A DNA stretch of 64,000 bases, taken from Bacteroidota bacterium. Lineage in GTDB: Bacteria > Bacteroidota > Bacteroidia > Chitinophagales > Chitinophagaceae. Positions 6,456 through 8,370 of the stretch are shown here, one piece after another (position 1 is the stretch's first letter; each line of letters opens with the position of its first letter). Location: assembly GCA_016868455.1 (NCBI GenBank), contig VGGV01000006.1, forward strand, positions 62,001 through 126,000, written 5' to 3'. The notes beneath the pieces are model-generated. The model was not told the DNA's origin, did no database searches, and worked only from the letters and a program-made list of their open reading frames with translations. The position numbers and the translations under genes were made by a program.

Positions 6456-7358
6456 ATGGAAGCAATAAAATTAATAGAGTGCCCGAGAGATGCCATGCAA
6501 GGATGGAAGGTTTTTATTCCAACGGATAAAAAAATTGAATACATTAACTCTTTGCTGAAAGTGGGTTTTGATACCATTGATTTTGGCAGTTTTGTTTCGC
6601 CGAAGGCTATTCCGCAGATGGCGGATACGGGTGAAGTAGTTCGGGGTTTGAAGTTGGGAGTTAGCAGTTCTAAGTTGCTGGCCATAATTGCAAATTACCG
6701 GGGGGCAGAAGCAGCCTGCGGCTTTGACAAAATAACTTACCTGGGGTTCCCCTTTTCTGTTTCGGAAACTTTTCAGCAGCGCAATACCAATTCATCAATA
6801 GGAGAGTCACTCGGTAGGGTTGAAGCAATACAAAACCTCTGTATAAAAACCGGAAAACAGCTGGTTGTTTATATCTCCATGGGATTTGGAAATCCTTATG
6901 GTGACGCCTATGATGAAGAGATAGTTTTTGAATGGGTGAACAGATTAGTTGCAATGGATATTGGTATAATTTCTTTAGCCGATACGGTGGGTGTGGCTTC
7001 TCCTCAGCAGGTCTATGATATAACCAGCTACCTTGTTGAGTCGTTACCCGGAACAGAAATAGGGGTGCACCTTCACTCCACACCTGAAAACCGGAAAGAT
7101 AAACTGGAAGCGGCGGTAAAAGCCGGTTGCAAGCGGTTTGACGGTGCGCTGAGAGGAATCGGCGGCTGCCCCATGGCCGATGATGAACTGGTGGGGAATA
7201 TGAATACCGAAAGAATGATTGATTACTTTGAGGAGCGTGAAATGCTTTCCGGACTGGATAAAGAAGCGCTGGCCGAAAGCTTGCGGATTGCGGGAGAGAT
7301 ATTTAGCCTCACCCCCAACCCCTCTCTGCCCCGCGGAGAGGGGAGTAATTCCCGATAA
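6456..7358 (+). CDS. Hydroxymethylglutaryl-CoA lyase
   Basis: 300 aa; IECPRDAMQGWKVFIPTDKKIEYINSLLKVGFDTIDFGSFVSPKAIPQM; GVHLHSTPENRKDKLEAAVKAGCKRFDGALRGIGGCPMA. Confidence 0.9.
   Translation: MEAIKLIECPRDAMQGWKVFIPTDKKIEYINSLLKVGFDTIDFGSFVSPKAIPQMADTGEVVRGLKLGVSSSKLLAIIANYRGAEAACGFDKITYLGFPFSVSETFQQRNTNSSIGESLGRVEAIQNLCIKTGKQLVVYISMGFGNPYGDAYDEEIVFEWVNRLVAMDIGIISLADTVGVASPQQVYDITSYLVESLPGTEIGVHLHSTPENRKDKLEAAVKAGCKRFDGALRGIGGCPMADDELVGNMNTERMIDYFEEREMLSGLDKEALAESLRIAGEIFSLTPNPSLPRGEGSNSR
7308..7345. repeat. Family B palindromic repeat forming the C-terminal end of the HMG-CoA lyase ORF
   Basis: CTCACCCCCAACCCCTCTCTGCCCCGCGGAGAGGGGAG; arms CCCCTCTC/GAGAGGGG; encodes LTPNPSLPRGEG. Confidence 0.75.
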
Positions 7359-7368
7359 AATAACCTGA

Positions 7369-8370
7369 ATGGATTTATTACTGAATATTGAACTGAATAA
7401 ACTACCAGAATCTATTACTTACCGTGACAAAAGCATGCTCGTGGGTTCCTGTTTTACCGAGCACATAGGTAATACACTGGGCGAACTGAAATTTCAAACG
7501 CTTCAAAATCCTAACGGGATACTCTTTGGCCCAGATGCTGTTTGCAAGAGCCTGCTTTCACATGTTCAAAACAAACAGTACGCAGAACAGGATTTGTTTT
7601 ACCTGAACGAAGTCTGGAACAGTTGGGACCATCATTCACGGTTTTCTCATATTCATAAAGATGAATGCCTGAAGGGAATTAATCAATCACAACAAAAAGC
7701 CCATGATTTTCTTTATGTGGCGGATTGGTTAATAATAACGCTTGGTTCTTCATTTAGTTATTTCCTCACCCCCCAACCCCCTCTCCACTTGTGGAGAGGG
7801 GGGGAGGCTGTGGCCAATTGCCACCGGGCGCCGGCCAATTGGTTTGAGAAAAAAATGCTGGAGGTTGATGAGATAAAAGAAATGCTGGAAAGCTGCCTGA
7901 AACAATTAAAACAATTCAATCCCGGTCTGAAGTTCATATTTACTGTGAGTCCTGTACGCCACATCAGAGATGGAGTGGTGGAGAACAACCGAAGCAAGGC
8001 AAGGCTGATTGAAGCCGTACATTTCATCTGCTCTAAATTTGAATCAGCCCATTATTTCCCGGCCTATGAACTGGTGATTGATGTGCTGCGGGATTACCGG
8101 TTTTATGATATTGACCTGGTGCACCCCAATTATCCTGCTACTGAATTTGTACTTGAAAAGTTTATTGAAACCTGTATTGCTGAAGAAACGCAACAACTGA
8201 TGAAGGAAATAAAGCAGATTGTGATTGCAAGAAAGCACCGCCCTTTTCAGCCGGATACCAATGCCCACCGGCAGTTTTTGAAATCCTATCTTGAAAAGGT
8301 GAAAGATTTACAGCAAAAACACAATTTTCTTGACTTGAAAGAAGAACTGAATTACTTTTCACAGGCATAG
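7369..8370 (+). CDS. GSCFA domain-containing protein
   Basis: 333 aa; MLVGSCFTEHIGNTLGELKF, NPNGILFGP, TVSPVRHIRDGVVENNRSKA. Confidence 0.85.
   Translation: MDLLLNIELNKLPESITYRDKSMLVGSCFTEHIGNTLGELKFQTLQNPNGILFGPDAVCKSLLSHVQNKQYAEQDLFYLNEVWNSWDHHSRFSHIHKDECLKGINQSQQKAHDFLYVADWLIITLGSSFSYFLTPQPPLHLWRGGEAVANCHRAPANWFEKKMLEVDEIKEMLESCLKQLKQFNPGLKFIFTVSPVRHIRDGVVENNRSKARLIEAVHFICSKFESAHYFPAYELVIDVLRDYRFYDIDLVHPNYPATEFVLEKFIETCIAEETQQLMKEIKQIVIARKHRPFQPDTNAHRQFLKSYLEKVKDLQQKHNFLDLKEELNYFSQA
7765..7806. repeat. Family B palindromic repeat in frame inside the GSCFA gene
   Basis: CCCCCTCTCCAC-TT-GTGGAGAGGGGG perfect 12-bp arms; encodes LTPQPPLHLWRGGE. Confidence 0.85.

Follow-up and report, generated by a model that had tools for sequence, protein, structure and literature searches.

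The locus described here raises the question of how a perfect palindrome comes to lie inside a protein-coding gene without breaking its reading frame, and what might have moved it there. Within the window, by which we mean the whole 64-kb stretch of DNA that was analysed, a 333-aa protein encoded on the forward strand (7369-8370) matches the GSCFA family (PF08885, E 5.5e-81), and its frame is uninterrupted by a solo palindromic element of sequence CCTCACCCCCCAACCCCCTCTCCACTTGTGGAGAGGGGGGGAG (7764-7806, forward), which encodes the peptide LTPQPPLHLWRGGE and matches the covariance model R1 with 56.8 bits (E 4.2e-10). The element comprises a conserved head, CCTCAC (7764-7769, forward), which lies outside the stem, and a perfect inverted repeat (7777-7802, no strand assigned) whose 12-nt arms (7777-7788 and 7791-7802) are 100% complementary and separated by a 2-nt loop. 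No other perfect inverted repeat in the window has arms of at least 12 bp and a loop of at most 10, and none of this size occurred in ten Markov randomisations of the window. A second copy (7307-7346, forward, E 1.6e-9), located 457 bp upstream, forms the C-terminal end of the preceding HMGL-like (HMG-CoA lyase type) ORF (6456-7358, forward), whose C-terminus SLTPNPSLPRGEGSNSR is encoded by the element. The sequence-only reading of this region had claimed a perfect palindrome with 12-bp arms in an unbroken GSCFA frame and a near-identical element about 450 bp upstream, and was correct on all three points.

The element is a member of a dispersed palindrome family in Chitinophagaceae, the family to which the source organism is also assigned by its close homologs in named records. 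The family unit, 5'-CCTCAC-CCC(N)-CCCCTCTCC-loop-GGAGAGGGG-3', spans 36-43 bp and consists of the head, a spacer and a GC-rich hairpin. An exact pattern search returned 13 copies in the 2.64-Mb source genome compared with none for a reversed control pattern, and R1 gave 19 matches at E<=0.001, of which two overlap, which corresponds to about 18 strong sites; the element is thus not unique in the genome, an outcome that would have refuted the sequence-only reading. R1 matches are present in 66 of 150 genomes of the same GTDB family, with at least 38 in one genome (no more than 44 candidates were scored in any genome), and copies per genome range from 0 to 19 within the genus, indicating that proliferation of the palindrome is lineage-specific. 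Only about half of the strong copies in the source genome are in genes, and about 40% are gene-internal. Avoidance of stop codons by the elements was considered, but the effect is weak (78% of frames open vs 63% for random 39-mers).

Seven of the approximately 18 strong sites occupy in-frame positions in the interior of conserved genes, with the nitrilase-like CN_hydrolase gene counted twice; the other hosts are GSCFA, GH43, a dihydroorotase-like amidohydrolase, DNA polymerase III delta' (holB) and GNAT. Three weaker R1 matches are in frame in purN, paaC and purH, and the remaining strong copies are located at gene ends (HMGL; the N-terminus of LamB/YcsF) or in intergenic DNA. The element peptides LTPQPPLHLWRGGE, APPLHHVERGPGGE, TPPLRRMERGSGGE and SLTPNPSPGERGAK represent different frames and strands. 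At the first nitrilase site, the source genome has 16 residues compared with a 3-residue turn in most relatives of the same genus, and at the second site a sister species (G180) carries the same palindrome family in the opposite orientation, likewise as an R1 match. The behaviour that had been proposed by likeness to Rickettsia palindromic elements (RPEs), namely dispersal into unrelated ORFs in frame with the addition of a peptide, is borne out by these hosts. Elsewhere in the source genome, a trpE-like gene (L279, G000:C11:66800-69200) with a palindrome pair (also CTGCCGGCAGGCAGG) is split into several frames, and is either a pseudogene or an assembly error.

In relatives, the palindrome also occurs as inverted pairs, and the interval between the two copies encodes a DUF559 (PF04480) nuclease domain. 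The host genes, among them those for LeuRS and AroC (chorismate synthase), remain open across the insert. R1 palindromes flank the nuclease on either side in 12 of 30 DUF559 loci of the family, and their heads point outward in every case. The cassettes that were measured (n=13) are 454-552 bp long, in 11 of the 13 the frame extends without a stop through 60 nt of host sequence at each end, and the CCTCAC heads are the outermost sequence of each cassette end, coinciding with the ends in 13 of 13 pairs. The inverted palindrome pairs are the exact ends of DUF559 (Vsr-like, PD-(D/E)XK-type) cassettes of about 450-550 bp, which usually run in frame through housekeeping genes, although no expression or protein data are available. 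The source genome itself encodes a cinA with an in-frame DUF559 domain (G000:C14:37395-37715), located between two palindromes of a related family; the 605-aa ORF has CinA domains before and after it, and a Pfam scan of this protein detected only CinA domains and DUF559/REase, with no Hint splicing domain. Among the matches listed, approximately 65 of about 150 DUF559 matches in the family and 44 of about 150 in the phylum are in frames of more than 350 aa. No constant target-site duplication was found at the cassette flanks, and no empty site from the same species was available for comparison.

Several further DUF559 loci were observed alongside these cassettes. In MetH, MetRS and CinA proteins (L288, L308, L292, L306, L294), in-frame DUF559 domains lie between palindromes of other families, whose peptides include SLNPSKGGT and SQLPPSGGEV. 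An aroA-like (EPSP synthase) ORF that adjoins a DUF559-bearing aroC (L291, G088:C169) contains the in-frame palindrome-like peptides SPSNSLSKGEGG and SPFGGDLEGAG, and a helicase-like ORF with DUF559 (L302, G081:C2) is followed by several near-tandem in-frame palindrome copies (LTPSPSPVERGAKTEND repeats). In a type I restriction HsdR-like ORF (L280, G053:C9), a GIY-YIG-like domain and a DUF559 domain share the reading frame.

It is possible, though in our view unlikely, that the DUF559 cassette is instead a homing endonuclease specific to each host gene (leuS, aroC, metG, metH, cinA), in which case the palindromes would be scars of insertion or favoured landing pads and not its ends. DUF559 is found at the same loop, at the start of LeuRS CP1, in other bacteroidotal families (L369, L373), and as judged from sequence this shared site suggests recurrent or homing-like insertion; the flanking of the cinA, metH and metG copies by other palindrome families also fits this explanation. 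However, scars or landing pads do not account for heads that coincide with the cassette ends in every pair and always face outward, nor for the many genes that contain palindromes alone, without DUF559.

At the level of whole genomes, DUF559 is present in 37 of the 40 genomes with at least five palindrome copies vs 37 of the 110 others (150 genomes; odds ratio 24, p 3e-11). This statistic is not corrected for phylogeny and is partly circular, because each cassette contributes two palindrome copies. Three genomes have at least five copies but no DUF559 (G040 with 34, G139 with 19 and G079 with 8), which implies that DUF559 is unnecessary for persistence of the palindromes, and perhaps for their movement too. 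We consider it rather improbable that the palindromes are classical REPs that depend for their movement on a RAYT-type (IS200-like Y1 HUH) transposase from another locus, with the DUF559 cassettes as passengers captured between two palindromes. Such a system would be consistent with the layout of a head and an imperfect palindrome known from REPs, with the two intact Y1_Tnp ORFs of the source genome, with the finding that 36 of the 45 genomes holding three or more copies have Y1_Tnp, and with the single Y1_Tnp that G040 and G139 each carry in the absence of DUF559. In contrast, the association of Y1_Tnp with at least five copies is far weaker than that of DUF559 (odds ratio 2.9 in the same 150 genomes), no GTAG or CGTC tag is present, and no R1 palindrome lies within 1.5 kb of the three best Y1_Tnp matches of the source genome or of two in relatives (L310, L311). 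A RAYT link was accordingly not supported by any flanking R1 copies or by more than a weak genome-level association. More broadly, R1 gave no matches within 1.5 kb of 32 GIY-YIG/Y1 loci, taken mostly from palindrome-rich genomes; GIY-YIG was rejected as an R1 payload on the basis of 0 matches near 30 GIY-YIG loci. Two GIY-YIG nuclease matches with identical scores lie 334 bp apart at a contig end of the source genome (G000:C5:71-283 and 405-617).

The GSCFA gene offers a view of insertion at a single site. The element is flanked by the conserved blocks LGSSFSY and VANCHRAP, which border a hypervariable loop (7744-7836, forward) that is a recurrent insertion site. The loop is exposed in the structure model (pLDDT about 70), whose best, albeit weak, matches are SGNH/GDSL-type esterases. 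Across approximately 175 GSCFA homologs, loop length varies from 7 to more than 30 residues, and the borders are nearly constant. In 80 GSCFA loci (445 kb) picked by protein similarity alone, with the loop ignored, R1 matches at E<0.03 occur in five, all of them inside the loop, where about 0.03 would be expected at the density of the source genome. The other 95 loci agree, and the sole further strong match is the copy at the HMGL end described above. Intact forward copies are present in L046/L209 and L128, near-intact reverse copies in L212 and L221, and the loop of L047/L195 holds another palindrome, TCCCGACA-ATA-TGTCGGGA. When the states forward, reverse and absent were placed on a tree computed without the loop residues, at least nine changes resulted, with decayed copies counted, which we read as at least seven separate acquisitions. 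The GSCFA loop is thus a hotspot, with no fewer than seven independent entries that include both orientations. In many GSCFA genes RLT is encoded as CGCCTCACC, which matches the head and had suggested CCTCAC as an insertion target; since reverse-orientation insertions lack it, it is not taken as a requirement. Neither the hotspot character of the loop nor the DUF559 cassettes had been part of the sequence-only reading.

Comparison with relatives also indicates what follows insertion. In the closest relative (L160, 79% protein identity) the loop is equally long and contains no palindrome, and its DNA is 67% identical to the element, exceeding all 20,000 shuffles; L163 and L164 look like later stages of decay. 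The palindrome thus erodes into ordinary loop sequence and the loop persists. Relative to the shortest homologous GSCFA loops, a net 8 aa were gained here and 9-11 aa in other cases, with an overall range of 0-11 aa, and since this is less than the coding capacity of the element (12-14 aa), host residues must have been lost with or after insertion. A clean insertion at GSCFA was rejected on the basis of this variation. The predicted insertion of 12-16 aa therefore holds only partially: the shortest homologous loops do fall 8 aa short of this one, but equally long loops without the palindrome are found in most close relatives. Homologs with the same peptide but without the DNA palindrome had been named as grounds for refutation, and this condition is partly fulfilled, since L160 does have a similar peptide without a palindrome, but its DNA and the tree are read as decay of an inserted copy.

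This free decay in relatives weighs against the reading of the palindrome as a functional RNA hairpin (terminator, attenuator or mRNA stabiliser) maintained for regulation, which we regard as very unlikely. The predicted hairpins are stable (-24.1 and -21.5 kcal/mol, the former for the GSCFA copy), and one copy sits at the HMGL/GSCFA boundary. However, copies occur in both orientations and in many gene interiors, a T-run after the stem is absent, and the z-score of the GSCFA copy is only -1.75. That the palindromes are not mobile at all, and that slippage adds GC-rich, low-complexity DNA to hypervariable surface loops whose likeness reflects convergence on proline/glycine-rich peptides, is hardly tenable and already mostly refuted: the GSCFA loop is exposed, with a low-confidence model, and most loops of equal length lack the palindrome, but head and stem match at the DNA level across several frames, both strands, intergenic DNA and unrelated genes, which selection on peptides cannot explain.

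We therefore interpret the feature in the GSCFA gene as most probably a solo member of a REP/MITE-like, mobile palindrome family of the Chitinophagaceae, an interpretation that forms the best explanation jointly with the DUF559 cassettes bounded by the same palindrome. We infer that insertion would occur with little sequence specificity and that purifying selection would retain only in-frame copies in solvent-exposed loops, so that loops tolerant of insertion look like targets. With regard to the mover, we hypothesise, at roughly even confidence, that the DUF559 nuclease acts as an autonomous driver, moving its own cassette and, in trans, the solo palindromes. The nuclease would introduce a nick or a cut at the palindrome or at a target, and repair or replication might then copy the palindrome-bounded unit. 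Solo palindromes such as the GSCFA copy would be non-autonomous derivatives or remnants that are moved in trans.

RPEs are palindromic repeats of about 150 bp that are found in frame in unrelated Rickettsia genes, where they add a peptide, and also in intergenic DNA (PMC10969869). The element described here likewise lies in frame in unrelated protein genes, but it measures 36-43 bp rather than about 100-150 bp, has copies that are translated in various frames and from either strand rather than as one conserved peptide, and belongs to Bacteroidota rather than Rickettsia; no nuclease cassette has been described for RPEs. Since the tests of length and of a single peptide failed, the relation is an analogy in behaviour, drawn without comparison to any RPE sequence, and not membership. 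GTAG/CGTC REPs are tagged hairpins of 20-40 bp that occasionally occur in frame in genes for housekeeping and repair, and an intragenic copy is sometimes found at the same site in related species, as in recB (PMC3733652). Our palindromes resemble them as short hairpins with in-frame gene copies, but have an invariant CCTCAC head in place of GTAG or CGTC, are associated with a DUF559 nuclease rather than RAYT, and show the high gene-internal share given above. Like REPINs and MITEs, the cassette has inverted short repeats as its ends, that is, terminal inverted repeats; it differs in encoding a nuclease that is translated in frame with the host. No target-site duplication was seen, within the limits of flanks that have no same-species empty site for comparison.

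The Vsr-like EDxHD family is found among inteins and free-standing homing endonucleases, which share with the cassette a nuclease in frame inside conserved proteins. Here, however, a splicing domain is absent, the unit is palindrome-bounded, and, judging by sequence, the host protein retains the nuclease. Palindromes in coding genes are already known, whereas we found no description of a palindrome-bounded in-frame DUF559 in the open-access literature (DUF559, PF04480/MTES_1575, LTPNPSP, CCCTCACCC with REP, RPE with Bacteroidetes). The cassette has a fair chance of deserving its own class. More specifically, and only tentatively, since we hold it at somewhat below even confidence, we propose that bacteria harbour a separate class of mobile element, in which a DUF559 nuclease bounded by palindromes inserts in frame into essential proteins, unspliced and tolerated, with solo palindromes as non-autonomous, loop-diversifying offspring.

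To our knowledge, selfish palindromes in coding genes have been seen mainly as a Rickettsia oddity whose mover is unknown. The present data extend this behaviour to a large family of mostly free-living soil and water bacteria, in which insertion and decay have been replicated naturally many times within a single protein loop, and in which a candidate enzyme for mobilisation is physically bounded by the palindrome. Together, these replicates and this enzyme make the spread of such palindromes directly testable, and they show one way in which protein loops acquire new sequence.
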